A DNA stretch of 64,000 nucleotides, from the NCBI RefSeq assembly GCF_037975245.1, contig NC_092574.1:27014713-27078712 (forward strand). Direction: 5' to 3'. Below the pieces are notes generated by a model, which worked only from the letters and a program-made list of their open reading frames with translations, was not told where the DNA came from and ran no database searches. Below are positions 932 through 62,221 of this stretch, one piece after another (the stretch's first letter is position 1; each line of letters opens with the position of its first letter). The translations under genes were made by a program, and so were the position numbers. The stretch comes from Apostichopus japonicus (lineage: Eukaryota; Echinodermata; Holothuroidea; Aspidochirotida; Stichopodidae).

Positions 932-1003
932 GTACAACCATGGAGGTAACCTCCATGGTACAACCAGCCAGCAAGCTGAACTCTAACTGCTCCCTGGTAC
1001 AAC
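932..1003. repeat. Two adjacent micro-insertions between three copies of GTACAAC
   Basis: The 7-mer GTACAAC occurs at 932-938, 958-964 and 997-1003. Between the first two copies lies a 19-bp near-perfect palindrome, CATGGAGGTAACCTCCATG (939-957). Between the second and third lies a 32-bp segment (965-996) beginning CAGCC and ending TCCCTG. The layout is what two small insertions, each duplicating the same 7-bp target, would leave. The same CATGGAGGT...ACCTCCATG palindrome recurs at 43510, and CAGGGA...TCCCTG ends recur at 35431, 38197 and 59619. Confidence 0.75.
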
Positions 1004-1548: not shown

Positions 1549-3722
1549 CAGTGGCGTAGCTAGGAATTTTTTGAGTGGGGGGCCATGGGGGGCTGTTCTT
1601 TCTTGTGGGGGGCCGGAGGTTACTATCTAAGCGGAGCGCCACCTTGGTTGGCGCGGAGCGTACAGAGAAAATTTGAGATTTCAGCACCCCCAGATCACAG
1701 GAGATGGCACCTGTGAGGCAAAATAGCAACCATGCTGACTGGCCTTGCCAACTCAGCCAGACTTTGACCTTGAGGGAAGTTGGCATCATTTGTCGTTTCA
1801 AGCTGTCAAGGCCTTTCTTCCAACTCAAACCCCTGTGGGCTACCGGTAGATTTGCAGGATATGCCCACATGTGGACTTAAATAGCATTATAGAGGAAGGG
1901 GATGGAAGACTAACACGCATCGATGTTTCGGTAATGGTCCACATTGGTGGCTCGGTGCTAATTAGGCCATTAATTGGGTTTCTTGAGGCAGCTGTCATCA
2001 GAATCTGGCTTTTTGTGCCAATCGATGACCGATAACATGTATTGTTATGTAAATTTCTTCTTCATATAAATAGCAACACTCTAAAAACAAACGAGTGGAT
2101 TTCATTCCATTGGAGTGATCACTCGGCGCACTTCAAATTAAGAGTGAAATTTAACTCTATTGGAGTTAACCCTCACTCCTAATATGAGTGAATATAGCTC
2201 TATTAGGAGTTAAGATTTACTCCAATGGAGTGGAAATTCACTCTTATACCGGAATGTGCTCAGTGATCACTCCCATGGAGTGAAATTCACCTATGTTTTT
2301 ATCAGTACAGTACAGTGCATATCATCATAGACGTACGTACGTACTACGTACGGTTCGTATATCAGACGCACTCGATACCCACGATACGATACGGTCCTGG
2401 AGAAACTATTTCCACTCATAATTTTTTAAGGCGATACAGTAGTGAGTATTGAACAGGCACAGCCGCATGTTTGCAGGAATTTCAGAATTCCCAATATTTT
2501 GTATCTCTACCAGTAGTGAAAATCATGTTTCGACAGTTTCGTGGGCATAAAAAAGTTGTTTTGTGGAATATTCAATGAAATATCAGGGGCGGATGCAGGA
2601 TTTGTGACAGGGGGGGGGGTCTGACTGGTCCAGCCGCGCCTGAATGTAAGACTATCTAAGCGGAGCGCCATCATCGGTTGGCGTGGAGCGTACAAGAAAA
2701 TTTTTGGCTTTACAAACCCCCCAGATGGCCGGAAACGGCACTTCCCGAGTATTCTAAGCAGCATGTACCTAGCCTGAAAATATGGATCTCATGTCTGCAA
2801 TTTCTCAATTGATGAGAAAAAAACAATCTATGAAATATGGTATTACATATCAGATGAGTTGAGATGATACAAACATCATAATGCCTTTAGCCCCCAATCC
2901 CCTCCCGTTCCGTCACCACTGTTTGATGCAGGGCCGGATCCAGGATTCTGGAAGGATGAGGGGTTTGCTCATGAAAAATTCGTTAGCGCATCCTAGCAGC
3001 CTACCGCTCTGTAACCTCACCGCCCAAAAAATTCGAACACCACCTCAATTTTGAAACTTTTCGGTCTGAAAATTGAGATCGTTAGGCATTTTTGGCACCT
3101 GTAGCACGCGTGCACACTCTAGTTCATTTGACGGAAAAGACACACCTGGCTGACTTGTGAGGATAACCGCTTTTCTGACGTACATGTTTAAACTTGGCGT
3201 TTAATTTAATTATTTTTTCTCTCTCTTTTTTTTCTCTCTTTTTTTTTTGCCCAAGAGCAGGGGGGTCCGGACCCCCTGGACCCCCCTGGATCCGCGCCTG
3301 CATATATTCATTTGACTCGAGGCAATATATCAAAACCTGATACCTCGGCTCAGTACAAACGGAGCCAATCTTTTGATAGATTGTTGCGCTAGGTGGAAGC
3401 ACTGAACATATTTTCAGCAGATATCGATATCGCGCAGCACAACAAGGTTCGTGGTATATGGTCGCAATCGTCGCATCGACCATTGCCATGCCATGCTGTG
3501 TGACCATTCTCATGATTACTACAGATATTGTATTTTCTTATTCTGCCAGATGCAGACGAGATAATTGTGTAACTCCATTTCCCAAATTATTGAACAAAAA
3601 ATATAAGTGAATCGCACTTATTTTTATTTTTTTACAACATTTTTTTTTACCCCATTCCCAGTGGGGGGCCAGCCTATTTCATGGGGGCCTCGGCCCCCAG
3701 GCCCCCCGTAGCTACGCCACTG
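1549..3722. mobile_element. hAT-like composite element, CAGTGGCGTAGC ends
   Basis: The left end is CAGTGGCGTAGCTAGG and the right end is its reverse complement GTAGCTACGCCACTG. Flanks TACACGCA (1541-1548) and ATCATGCA (3723-3730) match at 5 of 8 positions, consistent with an old hAT 8-bp duplication. A G-run lies just inside the left end and G/C-rich runs lie near the right. The interior carries the shared GCGGAGCGCC module at about 1625-1715 and 2650-2750, a foldback element at 2077-2305, and further ends of the CAGGGGCGGATCCAGG type at 2584, 2933, 3299 and 3828. No coding sequence is intact. Confidence 0.55.
2077..2305. mobile_element. Foldback MITE made of GGAGT/ACTCC palindromes
   Basis: The left half (CACTCTAAAAACA..., GGAGTGATCACTC) is mirrored by the right half (GAGTGATCACTGAGCAC when reversed, then TGTTTTTATCAG). 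Between them short palindromes of the ACTCCAATGGAGT kind repeat. No flanking duplication was found with confidence. Confidence 0.6.
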
Positions 3723-9316: not shown

Positions 9317-9538
9317 GAAATATATATGTATATATATAGGCTATATATATATTAATATGCAGTAGCTTACCCGAATCTTTTTCAAATTTTTGCCCGACAA
9401 TTCCATGATTTTCTTTATTTAGCATCATGATGCCCGAATATTTCCGTGTAACACCACCGTAAGCGCAGTTCATCTGGGCTACCAAGCTTTTTGCACGATC
9501 AATTTTTTTTTTCTAACTAGTCAATTGTATACCTGGAC

Positions 9539-10186
9539 CAAGGGCGGTGGAACCGGGGGCACAGGGGGCACGTGCCCCCCACTTTTCCTCAGGTTAAAAA
9601 TGTGCCTTTTTTCTACATAAAAATTGAGGTGCCTCAAGTTAGCAAGAGGCCAGGAAACCAGAATGGCGCTCGGGGAGGGCCGTTTCCGGCCATCTGAGGG
9701 GTTTGTAAAACCAAACTTTTTCTAGTACGCTCCGCGCCAACTGATGGTGGCGCTCCGCTCAGATAGTCGTGCATACAACTTTGAAAATCCTGGCTAAGCC
9801 CGTGACTTTTAATGAATATCTGTGGGTCAAACTCAAAGCTATTTCGAATGGAAAAAATTTGTTAAGATATTAAGAAGAAAAGAAAACTCTAATTCGGAAG
9901 ATTCCTACATTAGCAACTAGCATGATTTCACCTCATTTTGTCTCAAAAGAAAACTTGTTCCTTGTTTACCAATTTGCGAATTGGATAATGCAGTGCTAGT
10001 ATGCATATTTTCCTTTAGGGGGTGGGGGGCGTTGATGGAGTGATGTGTATACACAAATAAGATAATACAATAAGAGTTATAAAGGGTACTAAATATAAGG
10101 CTGCATCAGTCCAATCGAATTTCTGCAAAGTGCCCTTTGATGTCGGTGCCCCCCCCCCCAGATTAAAAGTGCTTCCGCCGCCCTTG
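9539..10186. mobile_element. hAT-like MITE, CAAGGGCGGTGGAACC ends, copy 1
   Basis: Ends are CAAGGGCGGTGGAACC and the reverse of it (TTCCGCCGCCCTTG). The flanking 8-mer ACCTGGAC is perfect on both sides (9531-9538 and 10187-10194), diagnostic of hAT. The 648-bp body carries the shared module in reverse at about 9675-9770 and no coding sequence. A sister copy of 616 bp lies at 12430-13045; the two share nearly the whole body, including the CGTTGATGGAGTGATG and GTGCCCTTTGATGTCGG phrases. Confidence 0.9.
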
Positions 10187-10572
10187 ACCTGGACATCCCC
10201 GACATGAGTGTATATAAGGAACATTTTCTTTCTCATGGATGGTGGGGTGGGGGGGGTGCCTACAAGCCTAGAAGTACAGGTTTATCATATTCTTTGTTAT
10301 ATTTTATACTTTTTTGTGAGACAAATTGCAGTCTCACCCGACACAGCGACATTATCCCGCCTACGTGTCGTTAAACAATGTATGTTTTTTCTGGAGGTAG
10401 CTGAGTACCGTGTTAAAATAATAAATAAGGTAACTAAATAGGAGCTTAAAAAATATACTGTCCCATTTTTCCCCTTCAAAGTGATGTTACCATTTTTTCT
10501 TCTTCTACTTTACCAAATTTTTGGGGAAGTGTAAATTTCTAAAACGTGAGATTATAAAATAAAGAATGTTTA

Positions 10573-12189: not shown

Positions 12190-13242
12190 CAGTGGCGGAG
12201 CTAGGGGTATTGGTCAGGGGGGGGGGAGAATGGTCTGTAGGGGCGCTTGCGACACTATTAGAGACCCTATAGTAGTCTCTAGACACTATCTAAGCGGAGC
12301 GCCACCACAGGTTGGCGCGGAGCGTACAGAAATTGTTTGAGTAAAGATACTCCCTAGATCACCGGAAATGACCCTTTCCGGGCCTTGCTAATTTGCAGAT
12401 AAACGAAGAATAAATAGGTGTCATCGCCACAAGGGCGGCGGAACCGGGGGGCACAGGGGGCACGTGCCCCTCACTTTTCCTCAGGTTAAAAATGTGCCCT
12501 TTTGCTACATAAAAATTGAGGTGTCTCAAGTTAGCAAGAGGCCAGGGAACCAGAATGAACACTCGGGAAGGGCCATTTCCGGCCATCTGAGGGGTTTGTA
12601 AAACCAAAAATTTTCTTGTACGCTCCGCGCCAACTGATGGTGGCGCTCCGCTCAGATAGTCGTGCATACAACTTTGCAAATCCTGGCTACGCCTGTGGGT
12701 CAAACTCAAAGCTATTTCGAATGGAAAAATAATGTTAAGATATTAACAAGAAATAAACTCTAATTCGGAAGATTCCTACATTAGCAACTATTTTAGCAAC
12801 CTCATTTTGTCTCAAAAGAAAACTTGTTCCTTGTTTCCCAATTTGCACATTGGATATTGCAGTGCTATATGCATTTTTCCTTGAGGGGGGGGGGGGGGGG
12901 CGTTGATGGAGTGATGTGTATACGCAAATAAGAGTTATAAAGGGTATATTAAATATAAGGCTGCATCAGTCCAATCGAATTACTGCAAAGTGCCCTTTGA
13001 TGTCGGTGCCCACCCCCTAGATTAAAAGTGCTTCCGCCGCCCTTGCATCGCCATTTTGTCAGAAAATTACACCAACAAAATGTGACAAATGTCAATAGGT
13101 ATTAGAGAGCGAAATAAAAAAGTCAATAATCGCGAATAAGTAAAAAGTGGTAAAAAGCTGAAAAGGGCACCAGCAGTCCATTTGAGTCCGTGGGGGGGGG
13201 GGGGGCATCCGCCCCTCTGACTGTATGGACGCTCCGCCACTG
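12190..13242. mobile_element. hAT-like element inserted in the LINE
   Basis: Ends CAGTGGCGGAGC and GCTCCGCCACTG. The flanking 8-mers are TTAACAAA (12182-12189) and TTAACAAG (13243-13250), 7 of 8 matching, with the right copy preserving the original LINE codon context. LINE protein reads up to one side (HSTETALV) and resumes on the other (KITNDL), so the insertion is precisely placed. It carries the shared module at about 12286-12390 and hosts a second hAT-like element at 12430-13045. Confidence 0.88.
12430..13045. mobile_element. hAT-like MITE, CAAGGGCGGCGGAACC ends, copy 2
   Basis: Same family as 9539-10186, with the flanking 8-mer CATCGCCA perfect on both sides (12422-12429 and 13046-13053). 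It lies inside the element at 12190-13242. This gives a clear order of events: LINE first, then the CAGTGGCGG element, then this one. Confidence 0.9.
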
Positions 13243-34092: not shown

Positions 34093-36358
34093 GTAAGTTC
34101 AGAGTTTACATCTGTACTCTGTTACTACTAAAAAACAGGTGTGACGAAATCACGTACACGTGGACAGGGGCATAAACAACTTTGGTGTTGACATACATTC
34201 GTTACCATGGTGACGGTTAAATTATAGGCTATAGTTTTTTTATATCACCCTGATAGCGACACATTGAACATTAAACAAAGGAGTTATTGCTCCAATTCTC
34301 TGATCCAACACATACCGTAGCTAGCTATACCGGTTCAAAGATGTGGAAGAGAGACTACAACAATGACTACCGGCAAAGGCAGAGTTGCTGTGCGGGGGGG
34401 GGGGGGGGGATCAGCAACGCAATCCATGGAAATGCATTTCAATACCCTGGTGAGGATCCAGTGGCGAATCCCCCAGAAGTTGTACGAGTTAAGATATTTC
34501 TTCTTCTCTCGAGCGATTTAAAGTACAATTGGTCAAGGCTATGGAAGATATTCCAAGCCCGCCGGAAGTTGAAAAACATTCAGTTCCCTTGTAGCTAATT
34601 TTAACTTTCGATCCAAGCAATATCTCCTTCAGAGCCTCAGAGGCTAAGTGAAACGCAACCAAGTACGAACACATTAAAAGACAGATGGACAGAGAGACAC
34701 AGACAGTTTAAATTGGACAAATGAGAATAGAGCAGTATAAGAAAGTAAGTAAGTAAAACTTTATTTCATCCCAAAAGGGAAAATACAATAGTATATATCA
34801 ACTTTGCTAACAGTCTTTCTCTCTTTGTGAATAAAATGGATTAGAATGTACGGAAAAACGAAACGACACTTGAAGATACTAAAATTACACAAATACCTAC
34901 ATGAGTCCATTATAGACTTGTGAACAGAAATATTGTCACAACATTATGAATATTTTGCAAATACATATTCGAGAAAACTTTCAAAACCAGATCAAAGTAT
35001 TGTTGACAGGTTGCTGCCACTTAACCTTATCAACAAATCCATTCATCTATACGAGTCCCTTTAATAAACCATGACAAGGCCTACAGTTGACCTTCTGACC
35101 CTTCGTATCAGGTGTTGACTTCATTTTCTCGTAGTACATTTATATAACTGTACATGGAAGTTTTTGCACTGTTCTGGATTTTACAACTCGCTACAATTTC
35201 GATTAGACTCATTTGCCGTTGTCGTTTATTTCCATTTCATTTAACAGAGTCTGTTCAAAGTATCTCTTTCGAGATCCGGCTTTAGGAATCACAAATGTTT
35301 TTGAGTTAGTTAGCATCATGTTTGATCTTTAGAGAAAGGCAAAAATTTGACACCAAATCAGAACTAGCATTGTTCGATACAGGTGACAAGTGCCTACAGT
35401 GGAATTACGACCTTCCAATTACGATCTAACCAGGGAGCTGCTACTCTAACTAGAGTAGCAGCTCCCTGATCTAACAAACCCCTCTACGCAAACGATACCT
35501 GGAGTTAAGAAAGGGTCAAGTAAATATGATGCATCGTTAACCATCGTTAACTTAATGTTAAGTCACTAAGATGTTTAACTTTAGCATGTTGAAGTGTTAA
35601 CCAACATCATATGTTATATAAGTTTCAACAAATGATGAAACAATATAAACATAAATTAAACCAGTTTTCTTAAACAATCGGATGAACGATAATGGTGGCA
35701 GAAATAGGTCATTAATTTCCACTCGTTTGGGCACAAATAACAACCTTTTGCGGTCTGATATTAATGTTAATCCGAAGAGAGGAAATGTGCTCTTCCGCCG
35801 ATTTGATTGGTATACAACAAGGGTATGCACGTTAATACACTGCACTTTTATGTACATGCCATATAGATTATACAGCCTGATGATCAGGTCGCCTTATGAG
35901 CAGGGTTTTAAGTCCCCTTTTGCCTTGAACAGAAGTTATTACTTGCTAGTTCAAATTAAATATTTACTGTTACGATAAAGCCCAGTGTTCTTGTCGACCT
36001 ATAACTTCCATACTTTGAATCGGTCATTGACTCTTTCAGGCAAACATGAGAATCCCATTTCATTACATCTCTCGCTTTCTTCGGGGGATTATCTCCGGGG
36101 ATTGGAATTCATCTGTGTGCAACCTTGTTTGTGTATATCAGGATGTATTGTGTCATGTACATTTCAAAGGCCGGGTGTCAGCCGATGTCAGGCTGTAATC
36201 CTGTTCACAGGTCTGTTACGGCGGTACAGCGTCACAATTACCACTTGTCTTTGTTGTTAACTGGATCAGATATTTGATCCGTACTATGGCCCCAGGGATA
36301 CAAGCATTGGTCATGTCACGACAGCGGAAAGTTTGTCGATTTCGAAATTCCGCAATGA
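34093..36358. other. Intronic or intergenic stretch
   Basis: No exon can be supported. A poly-G tract is at about 34396. A possible retroelement tail (GTAAGTAAGTAAAACTTTATTTC) lies at 34745-34765. A 38-bp micro-palindrome at 35431-35468 is listed separately. Confidence 0.5.
35424..35475. repeat. 38-bp perfect palindrome with 7-bp direct repeats
   Basis: The arms CAGGGAGCTGCTACTCTA and its exact reverse complement are separated by AC (35431-35468). The 7-mer ATCTAAC flanks it on both sides (35424-35430 and 35469-35475). Confidence 0.9.
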
Positions 36359-36826: not shown

Positions 36827-38150
36827 TAATACAACCATGGAGTTGATTCAGGCTATCGTTTTTATGCCCGCTCCCGAAGTAATTCTGACCTCTTCATTGT
36901 CTTAAGATGCGGTTTTCAATATTCCCTTGACCTCGGTCCGGTCACTGTGGTTTAAATAGTAACTACTTTAATTAAAAAGGACCGAGCGAGTACCCGTACA
37001 AGTACTTTATTTACAACGAAATTTAATGAGAGTATATTACAGCTGTGTAATCCTACAATATTTAAACGCCTCTTTCAGCCAACAAGGAGCTGCCATTTGC
37101 AGCCGTACATTGCTTCGATTTCCGGGTTTATAGGGTCCTTCAGTGCTCTGAAAGGAAAATCGCATGCAAAACATAACCACAGTGACATTATGCAAGCCTT
37201 ATATACCATTGTTTCAGTGTTTCTTGTTAACTATGATAACGAACAGGTCAACGACACGTTAACACTTTTGTTATTTTCTTTGTTGGAAAATCATTGTCAT
37301 CACGTCTATGCATGAATGCACATTCGCTATTTCAAGTAGGCCTACAGGATTCAAACCTAATTCACTGCATGAAGTAGTGAGTCACATGGAAGAAGAAGGG
37401 TCATATACAACCATATAGTTCTTCATTTATACAGACCACAAACTTGATAAATCGTAGTCTCTTTTATATTAATGAATTCAAACACACATTAGTAACTGTG
37501 GTAATTTTCTCCTAAGTAACTCAGTGAACTCAAAATACAGCAATAAGGAAGTTGTCTTATTTCAATCATTTGGGTTCTTACTTTGATAACGAGCGGAAGT
37601 GAAGTTGTAATGCTAAAAAATGCCAATCTAACCACTTAAATGGAAAGTGTTACACTTTCTCACCTTGTGGTGCAGGGACACTTGCTAATTACACCTCATA
37701 CCAGTCTCAAAGCCTTTTCGTTCTATTACAAAGAATTGTACTATATATGCAGAAAGAGTTGCTTCACCCGAAGGGGATGACGGGATAGTCACGATACTTT
37801 GCCATCTTGCACTCAATGACCTCTCTATACGTGATGGTCAAAATCAGAATAGATATATTCACACGGAGAACTGTTATATCAATAAAGAAGCCTTTTATTG
37901 ATTTCATAAAGAAAGTCAACAATAGTTTAACAGCCATATGGTACTTTATCCCGCGGCGAACAGCGAATCATTTGTGTACATAAGGATAATTTGTAAATGG
38001 AATAAATATGATATGATTGACAAGAAGGGGTGCGACCCTGGTCATACATGTAATTGCCTTTGGCAGTCTTGATAGCCGCTCTACGTGACATACACAAAGT
38101 GCAGATGGTATGATTATTAGTTGAGACATAGAATAGACTTGGCATCATTA

Positions 38151-38220
38151 GTATGAGAGTCCCTGGTATGAGCATGTTTGGCATCATTAGCATGAGCAGG
38201 GAGTTGCTCCCTGGTATGAG
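38151..38220. repeat. Duplicated locus with a 17-bp palindrome and GTATGAG repeats
   Basis: A palindrome CAGGGAGTTGCTCCCTG (38197-38213) is flanked by GCATGAG on the left and GTATGAG on the right. About 50 bp upstream, in a tandem copy of the surrounding sequence (TTGGCATCATTAG), only AGTCCCTG remains between two GTATGAG copies. This looks like a partly deleted copy of the same insertion. Confidence 0.75.
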
Positions 38221-38479
38221 CATGTTTAAATATCTTCCACAAGCTCCCGAAGGATTTAACATCTTGGGAATCAAGAGATTGTCATAAGAGTCGGGCCTTT
38301 AGTTCTGACAGGAAATGTTGATAAAAGTTTCTTAGTTCTGTTTTGCGACAGGGTCCGCACGGGTTTTTATATAGTACAATGTCTGCATGGCAGCAGTTTG
38401 AATCAATTAGATTATAAGAACGTCTTTCATCGAAGAGACTTGGCCAATATGCATCGAGTCCCGGTGAGGAAGTGACTCA

Positions 38480-38512: not shown

Positions 38513-41500
38513 CACTGACAACCGAGTAGACAGTTTGCTAAGGATTTATGTCGCTGTCAGGCAGTCAACTAAAGTAATGGCTATGATCTCGCTTACATCC
38601 TCCATCCAGACACGTCAACGAGCGTCATTTTTGCCAGCATGTATGAATTAAGGAGAACTTACCGTACTCAGTCCCATGCGTGTTTTAACGCAACCTTGAC
38701 ACAGATCAGTTAGCTTGAACAGGATGGCCGAAACAAAGATATTATAATTCGAGGAAACTATGAAAGCAACGTGGACGTTGTGTAACTTTTCACCTTGTCA
38801 GTTTTGTACTTATTTAGGTATGTCTATGTCAGCGAGAATGATAGTACTATGCAGTATCATCTGTTTATAATCAAAGATGGTGATAGAGTATAGTACCAGT
38901 TATCTTACATTCCGTCGGATTCTGTTTGTAAAAGAAGGTGATGGTGTTATGTTAAAGATCAAACAGCGTACTTCTTCAACTTGAAAAAGGTATATAATGA
39001 CGACATATGTAATCAAATACTTCCTGAAAACCTAAATGTGTTTACATAAAACGAACATTCAAAACAAGGTACATTGACATCTGTTCCATTTCGACAAAAT
39101 GAAGGTCAATAGCATTTTCCTGGGTTCTATGAAATGTATTTCCGTCTGCGGGTCAGATCACCGGGAATTGTGTGTCGTGACTTTATGCAGACTATTATAA
39201 TTATATTGTCGCTCTGTTTTACCTCCATGGCCCTACGTAGTACGTTACGGAGGCCACTGCACATCCTCGACTATTATGACTTAATCACCTCAGAATGTCA
39301 AAAGTACAAAGAATGATTCTATACCCAGCCTAACTTGTTCATGTCAAGTACATTGGATGATTCTATACCCAGCCTAACTTCACTTCAATTGTCTGATGTG
39401 CTGGATAAAAAAGTTATTCATCCATAGAGCCTTGTTTAATGATACGATTCCGGATCAGTGCAGAGATGCCTTTGTAGCGAATCTATAGCGAAATTCAAAC
39501 TGGGCTCGTTAAGCCAAACATATATGCTTGTACGTTGACATGATCATTGGGCGAACCTTCTCATATTTTATATTAGCCTACTGAAGCAGTGACAAATCAC
39601 ATGGAATTTAAGGAAACATATTTTCAGTATTGGATATTATATGTTTAATATGGTAGCTAAGGATCACCCAAGCTGTCGCAACAACGTGGATTTTATAGTT
39701 TGAACCAGGGATTCTAAACACTCCTTGTTTGAACAAATATGGGTTTCCAATTATCCCAAAAAATATGGAATGACTTTTGTCTAAAGGGTCGAAGTTCACA
39801 CAACTGAGCATAAAATGTACTGTACGCTTTAAAGTTTTTCGATGTGCAGCTTGTCGCATTTATTGACTTTCCTTATTCTCTGTAACCAAAAAAAAAATCT
39901 GTTTTCAAACCAATCATCGTATAGTGAATAACCTTTATTCCTATAAGGTATACATGCTTTTATAATTTTATTACATATCTTATGACCGAAAACCCACAGC
40001 TAGCTTAGGACAGCTTCCTACGTCTCAGAACGGTAAGGCTGAGTGGGGGTCACCTGGCACCCATGCTCACTTCACTTTGTTGAATCAAGTGTAGCTGCAG
40101 TTCTGCGTTCGAAAGGAGGCGAAGTTGTGTTAAGGATTTTACGTTATTTGATCTGGTCGCGAAGTTCAGGTTATATTTTTCAATACCTCTTTGATTAATC
40201 TTTGTCAATACTTTTTCGAAAAGAACATGTGTATTCCTAAATTGTGTTCGTGAATAGGTATGTATGGTAATGAGGAGACGATCAAACCTGTGCAATTATT
40301 CGGTGTTGGTACATGCATAGTTCTACTCTGGAAATAGTTTATACAAATTTGGCTTATAGGCTACTAATCGCTATGATGGACTTAGGAACGACTATGAACC
40401 GATGCTAAGATCTTGCATTCAGTAGTTCAATAGCCCGGTTAACGTGTGGTTTTCCTTTAAGTAGCTCACAGCGATAACGTGCATTGTACACCAGACATAC
40501 TGGAGTTGTTGTTTGTTGACCGTGGAAGGAATCTGTTTAGAATGCCACCACGTTCTACTTAAGAATTTCTTTTACAGTGTTGTTTGTTGTACCGTATCCA
40601 GAGAACAACATTGCTGAATTTACAGTCCCTATAGCTGGATGGAGTGTTATATGGCTTGCTGTTTGGCACGATGTTATCATGTGTCCTTATTGGCATCGCG
40701 TCGGTGAGTGGGAAATGTGACAGCAAAGTTGGACAGTGACTTGCTGCTTTACAGGAACTAACCGCAAAGTAAAGCCGGATAGGCGGGTGAGAATATAAGG
40801 TTTAGCAGCGGGAATCTGTTTGTATTCGGCTAACGGAATTGCATTAATTTTACCATAATTGCATTAAACATATTCCTTCATGCAGATGTCTAAAAGTTAC
40901 CGGCGGTAAAATTTCCTTCAGGCATTTTATTCGGTAGGTTTGAGAACCGTTGTTCGATTGTAACCTTCACTTTAATTAACTTGGACTAATTAAACTTGAA
41001 GTAAGGACATCCTGTTTTCCGTTTGTTGTATATCGTACGTCGAGGAGCCCTCCGGATTATTATTTTCTGTTGTTTCATTGAAATTGTATGTACTGTTGAA
41101 AGTTGTAACAGTGGCTCGCATATATACTGGATTGGAATACTGTTTGTTGCATAGATATCTTGTCCGGACTTACTGTAACCCGAGCTTTACGCGGGAAGTA
41201 ACACCAATTAGATCATTACTCATGTGTGACGGAGTACAGATAATTGGATATGGAATAATTATCACTAGCCCACCATTTTCAAAATATCGCATAGGCTACA
41301 TAAACTTTCTGTCGATTAGCGTACATGTTTGGGTAATCGTAATGCGTACCGGTTATGTGGAATAGCGTCAAACAGGATGATATTTTCCGGATGTAAACGT
41401 TTGTATACCGGTGACAATGACGTGACCTATGATAAACTGGAGGCCTGCATAGTCTTAGTGCACAGAGAGAGTGCTCGGTGTAATTACATGGCTGAACCAC

Positions 41501-41677: not shown

Positions 41678-44600
41678 ATGAATAAACTCATACACAGGGC
41701 GTACTTCATCTCAATTGCCATCATTTTGGTCATTATCTTGACTTTTCAAGGAAGCGTACGAAACGAGTTACGTCGATACGGAATAAAGGATATGCTAAGA
41801 TTTGTATCTTATAGTAACAACATCACTATTGCGCAATCTATGAAATACCATTCCACGTTTGACGTTTTTTATTCGCCCGTCCAGTGGATGAATATATCAC
41901 TGCCTGGTGACCGAGTCAGATCCGTGGATCAAGAGGTACGTACTATATGTAGGGAGCTGCTACTCTAACAGTTAGAGTAGCAGCTCCCTGTTATACAGAC
42001 GCATCGTTTACAGCATGATATATACGTGTATTTGCGTAGCTATAGGGAGGGGGAGATTGGAGGGGCGGGGGAGTAGTGGTTTAGAATGCTGAAAAGTGAC
42101 AGAATGTTGACAGGTATATATACTTTTGAGATGGCACATGATGTGCGGGTTGGGGAGGTGGGAGGAGTATGGGGGGGGCGGGGTAGAGTAAGCAGAAACG
42201 GATGTACAACCATGCAATATGGTGAACATAATACATATACATTTAAATTAAGTCCTGTTGTGCGTTCAAAAATGACCGATATATATGAAATGGGGGTTAA
42301 TGTTGATATCTAGGTATTATCTTTGCTGACATTTTGTGTTCTGGTGATATGGATGTTCAGAATTTCGAGGTCAAAGTTCATTATTGGAATAAACACACAC
42401 AAAATCATTCCCTACGTTCACATTTAGTAATGGCTGTTGACTAGTGGACTCCTTACTGTAGGAATTTGAGGTGGAATTATAAATCAGAGAGTAAGTCGGA
42501 TCAAATTATCATTTGCCTTACACAGTTAATGAAGTGAGTATTCACGAGTCTTGCTCGCCGTGGTCCTAGTGTAAAGTAGTTCTTTTTTTATTTACGGTGT
42601 CATGAGGGTAAAGGTCAGAGGTCAAGCCATTGGCTGAAACACTCAATTTGCTTCAAGCAATGCATCAGCACTATTTTGTTAGTTGCTGATATACAGGTAT
42701 TTTTCAACGATCTTTGCTTGCCCGCTGCTACAAATCAGGACGTTGTCGACGATTTCTACATGATCGTTAATTGCTACAAATCAGGACGTTGTTAACGAAT
42801 TTTACGTGGTCGCTGCTACAAAGCAGGGAGTTGTTAACATATTTTACGTGGTTGTTGCTACAGTACAAATCCAATCAAATCAATGTTAACGAATTACCAT
42901 CTCGCGTTCCATTGCGTCTCATTGCCACAGTGGTCAAAATGAGTAGGCATTTCACACATCCATCGTTGTATAATACTATGGTCTTCATCCCTAAAATCCG
43001 TATACAATACAAATTGGGCTATGCAAGGATGGGTTTGAGTAATGACGTTAATGTCTACGCTTAATGCAACCACTCGCGTTTGGTGTTTTCCAAAGTCAGA
43101 CGTTCGCGCAGGCAGAACAGTCACATTGTGTTCTTTTACAAAGTATCATTTCAAGGTTTCTTTCAGAAAATATGGTGCTTACAAAACAACCATCAACACA
43201 AGAAGCAAATATGGCACATAGGCCTATTGACTCCACCGTCAGCATACAATGAGAAGCTTGTCAATGTCAGATTGAGGAATGGCAATCTGCTAAATCTGCT
43301 AGATCTGCTAACGTACCCACGGAGCTACTTAACGTTGGACTTTTAATATTTTTTTCAAGAAAGAAGAAGCTGTAAAACGATGTATGTTGAAGTCGTTCTC
43401 AAAAGCAATTTGTCAAAGAGTGCTTTTGCTAAAATGTATTGCCTCGCCTAGATTCACAGCGACATCGAAGCAACCGTTTCGCGAGCTGCCTGGTAGTAAT
43501 TACTTCAAGCATGGAGGTAAAAACCTCCATGCTTCAAGCATATTCCTACCAAATATACCTGCCACACTTTCACAACAGACGTACACGGCCTATAGCGCCT
43601 ATATATACGTTTCATATTAGAAACGGGCTTTATTCTGCATTATCAATGCTGTATGGAAGATAAAAAAATGAGCTGATCGTGAAGAATCTGAGAATTAACG
43701 AAAATATGGCTAAGAAGCAGGACTCGAGGTAATTTGTCAGTGCTCCAATGCCGATTGAAATTTTAGTCTGACAGGCCTGACGAGAGGGGGACAGGTCGAG
43801 GGGGTACAGCTGTCAAAAAGAAGCCCCGAGAGGGGAAATATGTGAGAAGTGTGTTCAGTTTCATAAAACAATGAACAATAAGTGTCCCGGGACCAAAGCA
43901 GGCTTTTTACTATCCAAACTGACATGTCAGTTTTACATTGAGCAAATAGTGATGTCTTTCATTATGATTTCAAAGAAATCATTTTAGTTAGGGAGAAACA
44001 TAAAATAAACTCTCTTTTTGAATGTTTGAAGGTTCAACATAAATAAACAATATTCACATTCAGCTTTACTTTGCCTAAAACTCTCGCATTCGTCACTTAT
44101 TTTCAATATGACTTGGTCATTTGGATACATTATAATCTTGTTTAATACAACCAGCGTTGCATATGCCTTTGATGGAACACGTAGGAGTACAACTTCCTGC
44201 TATAAGTTGATTTGTTTGACCGTGTGAAAGAGTTCCAGGCATTCCCCAATTATAATGCCTAATTTGGCATTTACTATTGGTTTTAGCCCAAAACCTCTCG
44301 GTAGCAACAATGGAAGAATGGGCAATAATCTGTTTCCTGATTGTACCACTGCGCCAAATGGTTTTGATTTCTTCTACAGCGTCAGACAGTTTTCAGTACC
44401 TTGTTATATACTCTTTACATGGGACGCGGTTTAAGAAAATTATATGCATATAAAAATAGAAAATATACTTGGACGCTTTGCTGTATTGTATATAACAGTC
44501 TCCTTCACCGATTATTAGCAGACAATTTGTAGAAAGTAGAGGTAACATTTGTCAGCTAGTGTCAGATTACTCGTGTCTAATCTACTTGGACTCGGGCTCA

Positions 44601-47600
44601 ACTGGACTGGTCCAGATACTGTATTATATATGTAGTTTAGCTGCAGGTCCGAGTTCGGTAATTTCTGAATACCGTCACGTCCCCCACCAAGAGGAAATAT
44701 TGAAGTAATAAGTTAACAAATAGTACTACTTTAAACGTGTAACTAATATCAAGTCACTATACTTTCAAAGTCCTAATGAGTTCATTGTGAAGAAAGTCCA
44801 TTGTCGCATAAGTTTCCTTAAACCAAGGGCAACCACAATTTAACTATACACTGTGAATGAGATGAAGGCTCGTTGAAGTATCGATTGGTTTAATAATGGT
44901 TTACCCATTACTCCCTATTCTTCTGGACTACAATGTAATACGTAAGCATCATTTTGTCCCATTTGTATTGAATGAAGCAATGAACTTACTCCTTGCAATT
45001 GCCCTATTGTGTTTTTGTATTAGTGAACAAATGTACGTATGTACAAACTCAGTGTTCTTTAGCCATGGAAGTATCGTTAATTAGATAATGCACGTTCATA
45101 CTGCAGCTGTCCCTTCAGTAGTCCATGCAAGACGTAATACTGTCTTTAATCTCACATTCAACTTCAAGGATGACTTTGGACAAAATAGTACAGTCACTTT
45201 ACTGAGTTGATGAAACTCAGCTGTTTAAAAGGTCATATCGTAAAACTTAAATGAGTTATATAAATAGAGCCATGAATGATAACAGAGTGTTTTAACGGTC
45301 TATTATATATCGAAATTAATTATATATTATTATACTTCCTTATGATTTATGTAATTTTTTTTCAGGTAATAAAATAGGCCAGTAACGTATATTAATTCCT
45401 AACCAAATCTTTCGTAAACTAGTAAGGTTGGTTACGTTTCAAAAGGAAAAACAAATTATTAGAAAGACACCTGTCAAGTTCTGCACAATTATAATTTGCT
45501 GTTTCGCGCTTCAAACATAAATAATCTTACAATGCTCGACCGACTTCTTGTGTTCGTACCTTTCATATTTCTTGAAAAAGACATTTATACAATTATTATA
45601 CAGCAAGTTGCCAAGTTGTTATTATAACGCAAGTTGCCGCGTTAATTATTTTTTCGAAACGTTGCTCAACTCGTCACTGAAAGTCGGTCTCGAAATCGAA
45701 CAACAAAAATTTGTGAATGTACGACCCTGGTTGTATGACATTAAAGTGCTGTCACAATTTTGAATTTCATAAAAAACATAATATATTCATAAATTGGAGT
45801 TTTGCTCTGCGATGAAGCGTGGATGGAAGGGGATATGATGTGTTCACTAGCCCCCCAACATGTTCAGTGATGTGCATGGTTTACGCTTTTCAGGGAATAA
45901 CGGGCGGAGTTGGTGCATGCAAACTATTATTATTATTTTTTTTATTATTATTATTATTAAACTCCAGTTTCGATAAATACGTTTTACACTAGATAATTTG
46001 GGGCAAGGTCCCTGTCGGAATTAGTGTTTCACTTTGTTACCAAGTATAGACTCTGATGAGTCTGCTCAGCGACGCGAATGAGTCTTCCTACATAAAAATA
46101 GGAAAATGCTACGGCTGTTATATATTTTCCTCCCCTTTCTACATACGCTTTTTGCATACGATAACACGCATTAACAAAGGTAAGTTTGTTACCGTGAAAT
46201 GCAAGCTGTTGTCGTTGCTGTAACGATCATGTCAAGCACTACTATAGGAGTTGGTAATTGAGTTGTGCTCTGAACGAAATATGATAGAATGTTGGGTAAA
46301 TGTCATTCGTGCTCGCACTGCAAAGATGTCAACGCATATACAGCTGTTTTAATTCTTTCAGTTTGCGCTAGTGCACAACCTGTGAATAAACTAAATGTGA
46401 ACACTTCCATATAGTATAGTTATAGATTAACCGGTGTGATTCCTTGCCGGATCGAGGCAGAAGGAACCAATATGCGAAAGTGATGGTCCGCGTGTGTGCG
46501 TGACGCGTGTATGTGACAATTGCTTGTAATGACAGTCGTGGGACCTTGTTAAACATACACACATATCCGACCGTTTCATTTGTTTTGTAACTGCCTTTTA
46601 TAAGTGACAATAGCTTGTTGTTCCATGTGGATGTCAACTTACAGTTTGAAGTCTGTATATACATGAAACTATCGACAGTGAGTGTATCTGTCGAAAATGG
46701 ACAAATGTTGAGAAATTTAGTCTGACCTAGGTTTGACTATATTGTGAATCTATCATCTCATGAATTGCTATGGAATCACATTATCACAAAGAAGGTGTTA
46801 ATCTTCTATTTGAAACTATACTGCTGAAATCAACCAACTTTTACTTTCTTTCATTTTTTTTGCAGATTACGCGTTCCATACGTAGTCGAACTTTACAGGC
46901 GTTATGTCAAGTGGAAAAAAAGAATGATACGAAGAATTTATCGGAGAAAGAGAAGACAACCTTATATCGGCAAATAATCGTAGATGATCAAAGACGGTTT
47001 CTTTTCTGTTTCATTCCAAAGGTAGCTTGTTCGAATTGGAAAAGGGTAATCAAAGTGATGCAAGGAACACTTGATCCGGAGAGTAAGGGTAAAATGGATC
47101 ACCATTCAGGGATGACATTTTTACAAGACAACGAACAAAATTTAGCTCGTTTAAAATTGAAACATTTTTATAAATTTATGTTCGTACGACATCCGTTGGA
47201 ACGATTATTGTCAGCTTACAGGAACAAATTCGGTGAAAATATAGGCGATTATCGCCGAAGATACGGTTCCAAAATTATTAGAGCTTACCGTCCTAAATCC
47301 AAAGCGAGAGAAGCTTTCATGAAGGGCGATTTATCGATAACATTTGAAGAATTTTTAAGATTTTTAATTGACAGCGATACATCGACGATGGACGTCCATT
47401 GGAAGCCAATGCATGAACTATGCCAACCATGTGCAGTACATTACGATTTCGTCGGATCCTTCGAACAGCTACGTGAGGACGCGGATTTTGTTTTGGGTAG
47501 AATTCGCGGTAATTCAACGGTGTCTTTCCCGAAGAGGCAAGGGTATTACCGTCCAACAACTCCTGACACTTTAATCTCAGAACTCAGCAAAGTTAGACCA

Positions 47601-47681
47601 ATAGTTCTACAACAGCTGGTCGATAAATATATATTAGATTTTGCTTTATTTGGTTATTCTGCCCCCTCTCTTGATGTTTGA
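41678..47681 (+). CDS. Carbohydrate (chondroitin/dermatan-type) sulfotransferase, two coding exons
   Basis: Exon 1 (41678-41935, 86 codons) starts MNKLIHRAYF, has one membrane helix (ISIAIILVIILTF, about 11-23) and a lumenal stem with a sequon NIT, and ends DQE before donor GTACGT in phase 0. Exon 2 (46866-47681, 271 codons plus stop) follows a strong pyrimidine tract and CAG. The predicted length is 357 residues, close to human CHST11 (352). Exon 2 has the sulfotransferase-2 family signatures: the PAPS 5'-phosphosulfate loop PKVACSNWKR (47015-47044), the 3'-phosphate motif FVRHPLERLLSAYRNKF (47181-47231), and the C-terminal YDFVGSFEQL and FALFGY blocks. Enzymes of this family (CHST8-14) transfer sulfate from PAPS to GalNAc or related sugars of glycosaminoglycans in the Golgi. 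The acceptor sugar cannot be told from sequence. The upstream exon at 33841 is an alternative start. Confidence 0.88.
41951..41989. repeat. 39-bp palindrome of the CAGGGAGCTGCTACTC type
   Basis: Arms of 19 bp (AGGGAGCTGCTACTCTAAC and its reverse complement) around a single A. The arm sequence is the same as that of the element at 35431. It lies 15 bp after the donor of sulfotransferase exon 1. Flanks show no clean 7-bp duplication. Confidence 0.85.
43503..43538. repeat. 22-bp palindrome with 7-bp direct repeats CTTCAAG
   Basis: CATGGAGGT, AAAA, ACCTCCATG (43510-43531) flanked by CTTCAAG at 43503-43509 and 43532-43538. The arms are identical to those of the 19-bp element at 939. Confidence 0.9.
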
Positions 47682-48120: not shown

Positions 48121-49076
48121 CATATGCATAGGAGGCGGTGGGCTGGGGGGGGGGAGGGGCTGCAGCCCCCAACCAAATTTTTTTTGTGAAAATTCGGGCA
48201 ATATGCTGAGAATTTTTCGGGCACCTACTGAAAGAAGAAAAATTTGCAATGTGTTTTTCAATTGTTTGGGTGAAAATTCGGGCAATATGCTGAGAATTTA
48301 TCGGGCACCTACTGAAAGAAGAATAATTTGCAATGTGTTTTTCATTTTTTGGGGGGTGAAAATTCGGGTAATATGCTGAGAATATTTCGGGCACCTACTG
48401 GAAAGAAGAATAATTTGCAATGTGTTTTTCAATGGTTAAACTGATATTATTATGATCGTTATTATTGTAACGACTTCCCCAATAATTATAACCAATATGG
48501 AAGGGTAATAACACGGAAAACATAACCAAAATTTTTCGCGCGCTCCGCGCGCGTTTATGGCAAGCCGTTTTAACATTTACCTCGCAATTCGACTTAAGTC
48601 GAATACATTTCACTTAAGTGGAATTCAATTTCATTTAAGCAGAATACTATTTAACTTAAGTGGAATTCTATTTAACTTAAGTGGAATACCATTCCACTTA
48701 AGCTTAATTGTATTTTACTTGAGCTGAATTCATCAACTTGTCACTGCATTTTACTTAAGCTAAATTCTATTTCACTTAAGTGGAAATGCATTTCACTTAA
48801 GTGGAATTGTATTCTACTTAAGTGGAATACTATTCCACTTAAGTGGAATGCATTCCACTTAAGTGAAATATGATTGGATAGTCTATTTCACTTAAGTGGA
48901 ATGTGATTGGCTAGTACATTCAACGCCAAACTTTGCCCATGCCTTTGCGCGCCATTATAAACAACTTGCCGCGATACGTGTACGTACGTACGTGGTGTCG
49001 ATATGTGCACAATGAATATCGACTGTCCATAGGGATCCAGCTAGCACTTTACATCCGTGCAAGGTGTGTACGTATA

Positions 49077-49904: not shown

Positions 49905-50357
49905 GGTGTACACGTGCAACGAGGATCCACTACATCATCATATGTGATGAGCAATTGAATGCGTTACGACGAACATTACCCTAAATTGTATTTATATATA
50001 AGCCACATATCAACATTTCCACTTAAGTGGAATTGTATTTTACTTAAGCAGAATAGAATTCCACTTAAGTGAAATTGACGCCCAAAAGATATTATTCCAC
50101 TTAAGTGAAATTGTACTCCACTTAAGTGGAATTGTATTCAAGTGGAATACATTTTACTTAAGTGGAATAACATTTCACTTAAGTAGAATGTATTCCACTT
50201 AAGTGAAATGTATTCGACTTAAGTCTAATTGCGAGGTAAATGTTAAAACGGCTTGCCATATACGCGCGCGTAGCGGGCGAAAAATTTTGGTTTTATTTTT
50301 CGGGCAAGTCGTTACAGCCCCCCCCCCCCCCAATGAAATTAGGCTCCCACGCCTATG

Positions 50358-54734: not shown

Positions 54735-54840
54735 ATGTGTATGTGTGGCGCCTTGCTTGTAAACACGATATCTCAAGAAGGGAAACTTGGACTAAGCTTA
54801 TATTTAGTCGGTAGGAGGACCACATTGAGTAGAAGAAGCC
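54735..54840 (+). repeat. AGGTCA-family dispersed repeat, interrupted
   Basis: CTTGTAAACACGATATCTCAAGAAGGGAAA... as at 47955. It resumes at 56223 after the inserted element, with TATTGTTTTCTGGGGACGTCAAATGTCATTTGGGGTCACC, followed by a second unit to about 56420. Confidence 0.75.
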
Positions 54841-55256
54841 CAGTGGCGTAGCCAGGATTTTTTAAGTGGGGGCGCTGGGGGGGGGGTTATCTAAGCGGAG
54901 CGCCACCATGATTTGTCGCGCAGCGTACCGAACATTTTTAGCTAAAAGGGTCTCCTAGATCGTTGGAAATGACACTTCCCAGGCCTTGTAAGCTGCTCTA
55001 AAGTTTTCTCAACATCCTTTATTTTGAGATTCCATATCTTGATATGGTCATCAAATAGTTTAGTGAAATAGAAAAAAAAAACCAGTCTGGTAAGTTACTT
55101 TGAAATATCATGACATACATCTTGTGAGTTTGACACCGGCATTGACATTTTTTCGACAAATGTGCAAATTGCGCGTGGAAAATAAGGAACGATTGACTGG
55201 GCTTTCAGGCAAGTATAACATACTGAAATGACCGAAAGATTGCGTCTGAAATATTA

Positions 55257-55445
55257 TTAGGGTGATAGACTGATTCGCCGGTAGTTCTCAGCGATAGTAT
55301 TGTCTCCTTTCTTGAAACTTTGTTTTTTTATCGGTTTTAAGAGCATCAGGGTACGTCCCAGAAGTGAAAACACGATTGAAAATGTAAGAGAGTATCGAGG
55401 CAATGCCGCGAGCAATGATGTTAGAAACCTGTATGATGTCAGCAT
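55257..55445 (-). pseudogene. LINE reverse-transcriptase fragment
   Basis: The minus strand reads KQSFKKGDNTIAENYRRISLSP, the conserved start of the RT domain (FKKGD...NYRPISLLP), cut off at both sides and carried inside a hAT-like element. Confidence 0.65.
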
Positions 55446-55590
55446 TTTTTACCTTTTAACATCTTCTTTGGCATTCCAGTACCTGGAAACCACCTTTCTA
55501 TAAGGGTATAGTAAAGCTCACTAGCTTGTTTGATCAGTTAATGCGCACTGGTTACATGATCCTGATTGGCTGTTTGTATTAGCATTTATT

Positions 55591-55898
55591 CAGGCGCGTA
55601 GCGAGGAATTTGCCAATGGAGGGGTGAATCTGTAGGCAAATTATCAGAGCCGTAGAATCGGCATTGGAAACTATCTAAGCGTATAGCGCCACTACGAGTT
55701 GGCGCAAAGCGTATAAGAAAATTTTGGCCGAAAATGACTCCCAGATCGCTGAAATGGCACTTCCCAGGCCTTGCAAGTTGATATAAGCATTTTCTATTTT
55801 GAAATTAAGGATATCATAAAAACGTACAAAAAAATATGCTCAAGGGGAAGTGGCGGTCACCCCTTTCGCCCCCCCCCCCCCTTGGCTATACGCGCCTG
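55591..55898. mobile_element. Small element with CAGGCGCGTAG ends
   Basis: CAGGCGCGTAGCGAGG at the left and GGCTATACGCGCCTG at the right. Flanks CATTTATT and TATATATT match at 5 of 8. It contains the GCGGAGCGCC module in altered form (55668-55790) and a poly-C run before the right end. Same family as the sequence starting at 7631. Confidence 0.6.
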
Positions 55899-56445
55899 TA
55901 TATATTAGAGCAGGAATTGTATAATTCGACGGTCGTTAACATGTGTTTTCAGTACAGTGCGACTACTGTAGATGTCTTCTCGGCCTATGCGCTATGTCAC
56001 GTCAGGTTTTTTTCAGCAACTGTAGCCTACTGCCGGTCCGCGGTCGAAGGGTCATTCATGAGTGGTCATCATGGAGATTCGAGACCATTAAGACCAATGA
56101 TATATTTTTCGCACATGTAATTTTTCTTCGACACCCAAAATCCCAGTGGGAGGACGACTGAGGGCGACAAGCTTTCATGGGGGCTGTCGCCCCCACGCCC
56201 CCCCCCCTTGGCTACGCCACTGAAGAAGCCTATTGTTTTCTGGGGACGTCAAATGTCATTTGGGGTCACCAGGGGTCAAATTGTGAAAACTTTGTAAACA
56301 CGATATCTCAAGAAGGGAATTTTCGACCATCTCATATTTAGTATACGGTTGTGAACGTTAAATACAAGACGCCTGTAGTTTTTGTGAAAGTCAAAAGTCA
56401 TTTGGAGTCACTAAAGGCCATAATAAATTTCCCACCAGCGTCTTT

Positions 56446-59027: not shown

Positions 59028-60660
59028 AAGCCTCTTGTCTTTGGTAGAGATCAATCTGTATGCTGAATACAAGAAACGTGTCCATATCGGTTATCAGCTG
59101 CCAATGTACATATTGTTTGACATATCTCAATGCTTTTGACTGGACTACTTTGAAGTATGTTGTTCATTCTGGCTATACGCTACAGCCTATAGTGTGTCAC
59201 ATTCGTTTAAGATTATTCATGTTTCATAATCGAAACCACACTGCAGTTTTGCTGTGTGGTTCTTAACATTCTTGTGAACTACGCTCTGAATGTGTAGCCT
59301 TGAACTTTTGTCTCAACACACTGCAGATGAAATTAAGCTGTATACCGGTAGGCGATGAACTATATAGTGAAAAAGAAATAATATATAATTGAATAACATT
59401 GTGCATTCGATGTTATTTTACCGTTTTTCCAATGACATAACCGGGAACCCGGCAGGAAGCAGAGGAGTGACAGTTCATAGGTGGTTAATGTCAATATCTT
59501 GAAAACCGCCATTGCTATGCAAAACCATTAGCACTCATTGTTTCTTGAAATATAACGTATCAAGATTAAACTTCTGCCCCCCAGTATACAACATCTAGGC
59601 CTATTTATGTGGTCTGACCAGGGATCTGCGTTAGAGCATGGAGGTGAAACAGATGGTTAGAGTAGCAGCTCGAGTCCCTGGTCTGACGGTGTTGTACACG
59701 TTGAAAATAGAAAGCGCTGTTCAACAACGTTTTATTTCCAAGAATAAGTTGCCACTATCTCTAGATCGACACACATGTCATATCCTTTTATATGGCTGAA
59801 AGTGAATAGTTGCTATCTTTGGCTAAGGCCATGTGTTGTATCTGTGGGTTTTATCAACGCAGATACACAATGCTGTAGATCGCTCAACAACCTTAACCAT
59901 CGTCATACATGTAATACACCCCCCCCTACCAAGGGACCCATGATGCCAACTTGACGTAGCTTCATCATGATCATACGGTTATACTGTCTTGCATAATAGG
60001 GTTGAGAGTGGATGAAGTTGTTTTGGTTTTCGTGTCCAGGCTCTCTATGATTTGGACACCCTCGATCATGAGCTTAAAAGAAAAGCTAGATAGACCAAAC
60101 AGCTAGATAGACCTACTGCTAGATAGGCCAACTGCTAGATAGGCCTACTGCTAGGAAGGGTATTAGGCATACTGTTAGATATGCCAATAGGCATACTGTT
60201 ACATACGCCAACTGCTAGATAGGCCAGTAACTTACGATAGCATATAATAGGTAACGGAATTGGGCACATTAACACGAATCGTCAAAATGTCAGTAAATCG
60301 GAAAGAATTATCCTTATCCAGTTATCCTTACCAGCAAACGCAAAAACTGATATCAATTACATATCCAAAGATTTCAATTTGACATCAGAAAACAGTAATA
60401 CACAACAGTTTCAATGTCATATGTAAACCAAGAAACGAAAAAAAAACTTTCTTGAGATTACTTACCGGTATGGAACTTAAAATGCAAACATCACACTATT
60501 GATTAGGCTTGACAAAATAACTGAGAAATCAATTGGCTATCGCCGTTGGATTAACCATGATTTAGTGTGGTCATTATAATGTATTTACTTTCGACCACTG
60601 GCAGGTATACATGTTGTACAACAGCACTGAGAGCACGGAGCAATTATAATTGCACACACA
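59028..60660. other. Gene-free stretch with a small tandem repeat
   Basis: No exon is supported. A loose 16-17-bp repeat of AACTGCTAGATAGGCC with variants fills about 60090-60230. The micro-insertion at 59619-59680 is listed separately. Confidence 0.5.
59612..59687. repeat. 62-bp CAGGGA...TCCCTG insertion with 7-bp direct repeats GTCTGAC
   Basis: Starts CAGGGATCTGC and ends GAGTCCCTG, with GGTTAGAGTAGCAGCTC inside, which is the arm sequence of the palindromes at 35431 and 41951. It also holds GCATGGAGGT, the arm of those at 939 and 43510. GTCTGAC flanks both sides (59612-59618 and 59681-59687). Confidence 0.85.
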
Positions 60661-61379: not shown

Positions 61380-61829
61380 ATCATTCTTAGTTTTTATTTA
61401 TTTATTTATTTGTTTATTTTTGAGGAAGGGCGCTACTGTTGCCTATGTGGTTATATGACGAATCTGCTATCGATTTCTAAATGCCGCTAAATGCCTCTTC
61501 CACTGTTTTCCTCTGAAACCTTCCCTACCCCCTTCCCTTAATCCTCTCTTTGTCCCTCCGCTGTTTATCTCTTACCTCTCCTCTTCCCCTGTTGCTTTCT
61601 TCTCTCCATCCCTTGTCTACTAATCCCCTTACATCTATCTCTTTGTGTTCACCATGCTCATTAACCTGTCTGTATTCTGTGCGTGTTTTAGTCCCTTCTG
61701 TTACTGTAACTTGTCATTTAGCCTCTGAAGAAGAACCTGCTAGGATCGAAACGTCAGGCCAACTTACTTTCACACAGGAATATAAACAGAAAGACTTTGA
61801 ACAAAGAGGACATATTCAGCTGTCATTAG
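61380..61829. other. Gene-free stretch with a CTGAAGAAG...CGAAACG motif
   Basis: A pyrimidine-rich tract (61500-61690) is followed by CTCTGAAGAAGAACCTGC and GATCGAAACGTC (61723-61755), a motif arrangement common in repeat-rich invertebrate DNA. The reading frame across it is not convincing as a gene. Confidence 0.4.
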
Positions 61830-62213
61830 CATAGGCGTAGGAGGCGGGGGGGGGGGGGGCTGGGGGCTACAGCCCCCACCCAATTTTTTTTGTAAAAATT
61901 TGGGCAATATGCTGAGAATTTTTCGGGAACCTACGGAAAGAAAAATAATTTGCAATGTGTTTTTCAATGGTTAAACTGATATTATATTATCATTAGTATT
62001 TTAACGACTTCCCCAATAATTATAACCAATATGGAAGGGTAATAATACGGCGAATGATTATATGACATTGGCATGCGATGTTATAATCGATGCATGCGCA
62101 TATGATATGCACATTAACATGTTGAACGCGCGCGAAACGCGCGAACAATTTTGGTTAAATTTTTCGGCCAAGTCGTTACAGCCCGCAAATCAAATTGGGC
62201 TCCTACGCCTATG
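61830..62213. mobile_element. CATAGGCG-family hAT-like MITE, complete
   Basis: Ends CATAGGCGTAGGAGGCGGGG and GGGCTCCTACGCCTATG with a perfect 8-bp duplication GTCATTAG (61822-61829 and 62214-62221). It has a long G-run inside the left end, TTTGGGCAATATGCTGAGAA, and AACGCGCGCGAAACGCGCG near the right. At 384 bp it is the reference copy for those at 8500, 26480 and 48121. Confidence 0.93.
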
Positions 62214-62221
62214 GTCATTAG

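Follow-up and report, generated by a model that had tools for sequence, protein, structure and literature searches.

We interpret the palindromes of 17-62 bp that lie between 7-bp direct repeats in a 64,000-nucleotide stretch of the Apostichopus japonicus genome (the whole stretch analysed here, C14:27014713-27078712, referred to as the window) as excision scars, left by at least two, and probably at least three, related families of cut-and-paste elements that probably belong to the P superfamily. We put the probability of this reading at about 0.8. The initial annotation had regarded the palindromes as units that insert by themselves; our analysis favours scars that stay behind after the excision of a larger element, and agrees with that annotation that a parent transposase is required. 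Scars of this kind most likely number in the hundreds in this genome.

Palindromic loci in the window

Re-reading of the letters recovered CA...TG palindromes between 7-bp direct repeats at all five loci (5/5) at which they had been reported. The repeats are exact at four of the five, and at the fifth (38190/38214) the two copies are one transition apart (GCATGAG/GTATGAG). We also scanned the window for 7-bp repeats with at most 1 mismatch that directly flank a CA...TG insert of 15-65 nt with a perfect terminal inverted repeat of at least 6 bp. This returned five structures, all of them the known ones, whereas 100 first-order Markov sequences averaged 0.18 and none gave more than 2. The GTACAAC array, described initially as palindromes among three copies of one target, does hold three copies, but a clean palindrome is present only in its first insert (939-957), and the second (965-996) is read as a decayed type-A scar.

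Three pieces had been missed in the initial annotation, namely the copy at 41950-41990, the scar at 38151-38172 and the relic at 39213-39229 (Table 1). The first of these is flanked by decayed targets, CTATATG and TTATACA, which are three transitions apart. The second lies in a tandem duplicate of the 38190-38220 locus, whose own scar contains CAGGGAGTTG, a better match to arm C (see below) than to arm A. Within 38130-38225 a segment has been tandemly duplicated together with its target, and the two copies hold different scars (AGTCCCTG versus CAGGGAGTTGCTCCCTG). For the relic we looked for a right end with a matching target and found none; from this one-armed piece, arm B appears to run on to a 17-nt form, CATGGAGGTRAAACAGA.

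Table 1. Target copies and putative scars in the window, with positions counted from its first letter.
Feature	Position	Strand	Basis
Target copy 1, GTACAAC	932..938	+	letters read, scan
Type-B scar, short arms CATGGAGGT/AACCTCCATG	939..957	+	letters read, scan
Target copy 2, GTACAAC, common to two events	958..964	+	letters read, scan
Decayed type-A scar, 3' part ...CTCTAACTGCTCCCTG as in L053	965..996	+	assigned by eye
Target copy 3, GTACAAC	997..1003	+	letters read, scan
Target copy 1, ATCTAAC	35424..35430	+	letters read, scan
Type-A scar, left arm 20 nt and right arm 18 nt	35431..35468	+	
Target copy 2, ATCTAAC	35469..35475	+	letters read, scan
GTATGAG-AGTCCCTG-GTATGAG, nearly erased second scar	38151..38172	+	by eye
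GCATGAG-CAGGGAGTTGCTCCCTG-GTATGAG, short scar, each arm 7-10 nt	38190..38220	+	
One-armed type-B relic, 17-nt arm CATGGAGGTAAAACAGA	39213..39229	-	
Sixth locus, type-A scar 41950-41990 (20 nt + A + 20 nt) with targets	41943..41997	+	
CTTCAAG-type-B scar (22 bp)-CTTCAAG	43503..43538	+	letters read, scan
GTCTGAC-outer type-A scar (insert 62 bp)-GTCTGAC	59612..59687	+	letters read, scan
Nested type-B scar in the outer A scar, GTTAGAG-CATGGAGGTGAAACAGATG-GTTAGAG	59630..59662	+	

Targets are re-used: the same duplicated 7-mer can adjoin scars from different families. At 932-1003 three copies of a single target enclose a B scar and a decayed A scar; the same three-copy layout recurs outside the window at L098, with a C scar and a B scar, and at C14:23818314 a C scar lies between two CTCTAAC copies inside an A scar. 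Since older scars contain GTTAGAG/CTCTAAC and later scars lie between copies of these 7-mers, old scars have served as targets for later insertions. The 62-bp member is a case in point. It had been taken to contain parts of both arm types, and the two arms to be deletion forms of one parent. It is instead a B scar with its own GTTAGAG repeat inside an A scar, which indicates two events rather than a common parent, and each of the two arms recurs alone across the genome.

Other features of the window were recorded alongside. Inserts at 12422-13053, 9531-10194, 54833-56230 and 61822-62221 have 13-14 of 14 terminal bases inverted and are flanked by exact 8-bp repeats; they look like ordinary terminal-repeat elements with an 8-bp target, which we take to be hAT-like. 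A minisatellite of about 22 bp (catttcgcccaaccagcctggt), seen by eye, occupies 1058-1230 just downstream of the first scars, dense arrays of palindromic ACTTAAGTGGAAT units are found at 48587-48900 and 50020-50224, and a 305-aa open frame at 46764-47681 looks by eye like a carbohydrate sulfotransferase exon.

Abundance and target duplications across the genome

We searched the 671.6-Mb assembly (35 contigs) for both arms. Arm A (18 nt, at most 2 mismatches) has 1,414 matches (722 forward and 692 reverse), compared with 7 (3+4) for a reversed-pattern control, and arm B (17 nt, at most 1 mismatch) has 454 genome-wide (259+195, control 2+0). A third arm, C (CAGGGAGTTGTTATGGA), was met at several fetched loci. 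Sites were read at 95 of the 100 A places listed and, among the 100 B places listed, at 39 single places and at 16 that belong to one tandem array on C6. Related copies were collapsed by their 20-bp left flank, by which 38 A and 8 B views were dropped as duplicates, and a further 4 mirror or inner A views were removed, leaving 58 A and 33 B sites (91 distinct). This collapse is imperfect, as L004 and L016 are alike yet counted twice, and L013, L044, L068 and L115 perhaps represent a single site in diverged form. Short scars are under-counted, because the samples demanded a nearly whole left arm.

A stretch of C6 (995700-996500, L105) consists of 18 units of GTATGAG plus a B scar, mostly with a 32-bp period. 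The insert is 25 bp long in 14 units and 29 bp in four, and the 7-mer is inverted (CTCATAC) twice. Such an array could have come either from repeated insertion or from tandem amplification.

The initial annotation had proposed real transposition events with 7-bp duplications, and the evidence upholds this. An exact copy of the left 7-mer is found within 60 bp at 34 of the 58 A sites, whereas 200 permutations of the left 7-mers among sites gave 1.6 on average and never more than 6; under a looser rule (1 mismatch, within 140 bp) the figures are 45/58 versus an average of 12.2 and at most 20 after permutation. The 58 sites of this test are distinct 20-bp left flanks, some of which are related copies or two views of one palindrome. 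Furthermore, the sequences we read include an empty paralogue for five loci (L035 versus L025, L023 versus L110, L051 versus itself, L053 versus L036, and L063 in its satellite), and in every case the target 7-mer is single in the empty copy, counted as itself or as a one- or two-base variant. The 7-mers are therefore real target duplications and did not pre-exist as pairs, which the initial annotation had named as a finding that would refute insertion.

Of 55 distinct 7-mers, 43 have T at position 2, 47 have A at position 6 and 34 have C at position 7; position 1 is G in 25, position 3 a pyrimidine in 38 and position 5 a purine in 32. From these counts the motif is roughly G-T-Y-n-R-A-C. The motif N-T-N-Y-R-A-S suggested earlier fits the window loci, but in the larger sample it holds only in part, as Y stands at position 4 in just 24/55.

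Arm ends, joins and the search for a parent

Arm A ends after 20 nt and arm B after 17 nt. In the 58 A sites, where nt 1-18 were fixed by the search, the commonest base is present at nt 19 in 41, at nt 20 in 51 and at nt 21 in 36, and the right arm often starts at nt 21. In arm B, whose identity through nt 17 was set by the construction of the search, the commonest base at nt 18 occurs in 16 of 33 sites. An exact A arm is followed by CTCCCTG at a gap of 0-26 nt in 410 cases (203+207) and at a gap of 27-57 nt in 23 (12+11), with 0 in the control for both ranges. The long-gap pairs represent 16 places, 14 of which read as adjacent, tandem or nested scars; the other two are a closed scar with a chance match and a case of unexplained filler (C22:16787875). 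Among the first 100 exact A places listed, 73 have a right arm within 26 nt.

The A sites comprise 29 clean joins, 15 with inserted or altered bases, 9 without a right target and 5 in which the right arm is shorter than 2 nt or changed; the corresponding numbers for B sites are 12, 6, 10 and 5, and the class with insertions (15 A, 6 B) takes in arms altered by mutation. Of the nine A sites that lack a right target, six still show, by eye, a right arm or parts of one.

These counts bear on the idea that we are looking at ordinary short MITEs, or at solo ends of longer elements, with a terminal repeat of 17-20 bp and diverse interiors. The 10 of 33 B sites that lack a right target in reach and continue into unique sequence past the arm would suit such elements, as would a few similar A sites (L015, L019, L031, L036). 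We consider this explanation very improbable, because exact two-arm pairs nearly vanish past a 26-nt gap, and because a search of the next 1.0-1.5 kb at 4 A and 5 B one-armed sites found no right end with a matching target. Moreover, 14 A and 14 B sites show no right-arm end in the next 32 nt, and a shared continuation was seen in two A pairs only and in no B pair; both A pairs consist of scars, tandem in one case and in the other built as 20+T+20 with mutated ends. A 20-nt A arm followed by A and then by a base other than G occurs at 17 exact places, and 10 of the 13 that were read in addition look scar-like, the remaining L154, L162 and L164 showing one arm and unique flank.

The sites share several features with P-type excision footprints. 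Both targets are kept around the remnants of the ends, the target is single at unoccupied sites, and short overlaps and templated filler occur at the join. Overlaps of at least 1 nt are found at 19 of 29 clean A joins (random expectation 0.36) and at 8 of 12 B joins (0.12), but this excess is weak when identical junctions are counted once (7/13 A types, 1/5 B types), and microhomology is therefore used as support only. Arms are tandemly repeated or copied as filler at L006, L035, L093 and L124, and inserts with a single arm lie between intact targets at L022 and L136.

Identical junctions recur at different targets (one is common to 9 A sites and another to 8 B sites), as amplified tiny elements would also give, and this speaks against scars. 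This raises the alternative that the palindromes are themselves mobile, as units of less than 50 bp inserted in trans, with variants produced by later central deletion. The target duplications are real, as that alternative needs, and perfect palindromes of 40 bp and 34 bp are present at 3 places each among the 100 places listed. The one-armed inserts at L022 and L136, however, could not have been delivered as a unit by transposition of terminal repeats, and neither arm-copied filler nor tandem arm copies are in keeping with such units. Real P excision often yields recurrent junctions too: in one study two of them were each recovered from 14 isolates, and other products contained copied filler (PMC2895639). 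According to another report, at least 138 bp and 216 bp of end sequence are required by the Drosophila P element, though it deduces that less than 100 bp may suffice in Anopheles (PMC1562414). We regard mobile palindromes as unlikely, and excision scars remain our preferred reading.

We looked for a shared element body at the 91 distinct and 13 further sites, a minority of the arm matches in the genome, and found none there; the expected parent end would start with CAGGGAGCTGCTACTCTAAC or CATGGAGGTAAAACAGA next to a 7-bp target. P-like transposases, the type marked by an RNase H domain with a GTP-binding insertion, are present in the genome (12 matches to PF12017 and 45 to PF21787), but none could be tied to arms A or B in the stretches read. 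We read the stretches around P transposases (L071-L082 and L109-L113), the flanks of two L071-L075 family members (L083-L086), the flanks of L076 (L107-L108) and two copies of a cluster on C16 (L167-L168). Scanning stretches near P transposases for the first 11-12 bases of the arms, with at most 2 mismatches in some stretches and 1 in others, gave only loose matches that by eye do not look like the ends of elements. Type-C scars adjoin L081 and L111.

One P family (L071-L075) has copies that are 86-99% alike, with transposase pieces carrying P transposase domains. Like the scars, it has CA...TG ends and inverted terminal repeats (CACTGATCTACACTAACTGG). Its target is an 8-bp sequence, ACTGCGCG, at the only copy read at both ends, and its different ends together with this 8-bp target rule it out as the parent of arms A and B. 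For other P-like lineages no ends could be found, so they can be neither linked with arms A and B nor dismissed as their source.

In L112, an outward-facing CATGGAG pair near 1150 and a scar-like CATGGAGCTATAAACGA...TCCATG at 3127 could not be tied to a parent. The same stretch holds an open frame (L112:1208-3133, C17 near 20914516) with a P-type RNase H domain (PF21787), the N-terminus of which matches the RAG1 importin-binding domain (PF12560, E 4.4e-10); the combination presumably recalls N-RAG-TP elements.

Proposed excision route and comparison with known systems

The route we propose begins with elements whose ends start with CAKGGAG and whose insertion at roughly GTYnRAC duplicated 7 bp, a step that the sequences show. 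The transposase would later have cut one strand at the edge of the element and the other strand inside it, at 17 nt (B, and probably C) or 20 nt (A), which would have left 3' tails of terminal-repeat sequence on both flanks. End joining may then have paired the two identical tails, trimmed and copied them and closed the break, in agreement with a published experiment, and the product would read target copy, left arm, right arm, target copy. That such tails existed, 17 and 20 nt long, we infer from where the arms end.

Individual junctions can be accommodated in this route. The commonest B junction (8/12 clean joins) would form if the last base, A, of one tail paired with T9 of the other, and pairing of that A with the only other T (T3) would yield the nested 19-bp insert at 59637-59655. 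For A tails, pairing of the last C with G10 could account for the junction of 4/29 clean joins, and a TA overlap for that of 9/29.

A long staggered cut, CA...TG ends and a 7-bp target with T at position 2 and A at position 6 appear to point to the P superfamily, in which Galileo seems closest in target size. Since no parent was found, this assignment is drawn from mechanism, ends and target, and is probable rather than proved. The duplication is 7 bp, near GTYnRAC, and thus within the 7-8 bp expected of the superfamily. With respect to the 17-nt tail of the P type, end remnants are bounded at 17 nt in B and at 20 nt in A, and the A value, which departs from that of P, counts against the reading.

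According to the accessible text of a review, the Drosophila P transposase makes its 3' cut at the element edge, while the cut in the opposite strand falls 17 bp into the terminal repeat, a stagger that the review terms unusual without excluding other systems (PMC7776569). A transposon outside the P superfamily, with an independently acquired stagger of 17-20 nt or with 17-20 nt of each end kept during repair, might thus leave similar scars; the missing parent and the 20-nt limit of arm A are compatible with this. The presence of P-like transposases in the genome, the CA...TG ends and the likeness of the 7-bp T2/A6 target to that of Galileo stand against it, and we hold such an origin to be improbable.

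For a DNA transposon, so many scars beside few or no bodies would be unusual, which weighs against the scar reading. It is conceivable, if somewhat doubtful, that P-like families were almost wholly removed by excision, with scars outnumbering bodies hundreds to one, and that at least one of them (A) cut with a 20-nt stagger. If the bodies are truly gone, one may ask by what course excision could become the main route of loss for a DNA transposon; and if removal was near-total, the scars created new GTTAGAG/CTCTAAC targets that later elements used. Work on excision footprints has usually relied on laboratory crosses and on single loci. Hundreds of readable scars would form a natural archive of the germline repair of long 3' tails, and they point to where a transposase, perhaps no longer present in this genome, made its cut. 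For annotation, very short palindromes between direct repeats should not automatically be interpreted as mobile elements.

MITEs resemble these loci in having inverted arms between target copies and a high copy number. Unlike MITEs, the scars have no common internal sequence (no common continuation past the arm was seen except between scars), their arms stop at one place, their joins differ and some are one-armed.

Galileo, a Drosophila member of the P superfamily, makes 7-bp duplications with the consensus GTAGTAC, and thus shares the length, T at position 2 and A at position 6 with the sites studied here (PMC2775673). Galileo is known from elements that have bodies and long terminal repeats, and the comparison drawn here is one of targets.

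P-element excision footprints themselves are already known. In the accessible open-licence literature we found no account of fossil P footprints at this scale, nor, in a search not aimed at stagger, of a P-like element with a 20-nt stagger. The footprints of Drosophila melanogaster were induced in the laboratory from a known parent and have an 8-bp target and a 17-nt tail, whereas here hundreds of fossil sites with no parent found have a 7-bp target and inferred tails of 17 (B) and 20 nt (A). In the study of those footprints, P excision gives repair products with an 8-bp target, a partial end, an overlap or filler, a second partial end and again the 8-bp target; the same layout, the same recurrence of short-homology junctions, templated filler and CA...TG ends are found at the sites described here (PMC2895639).
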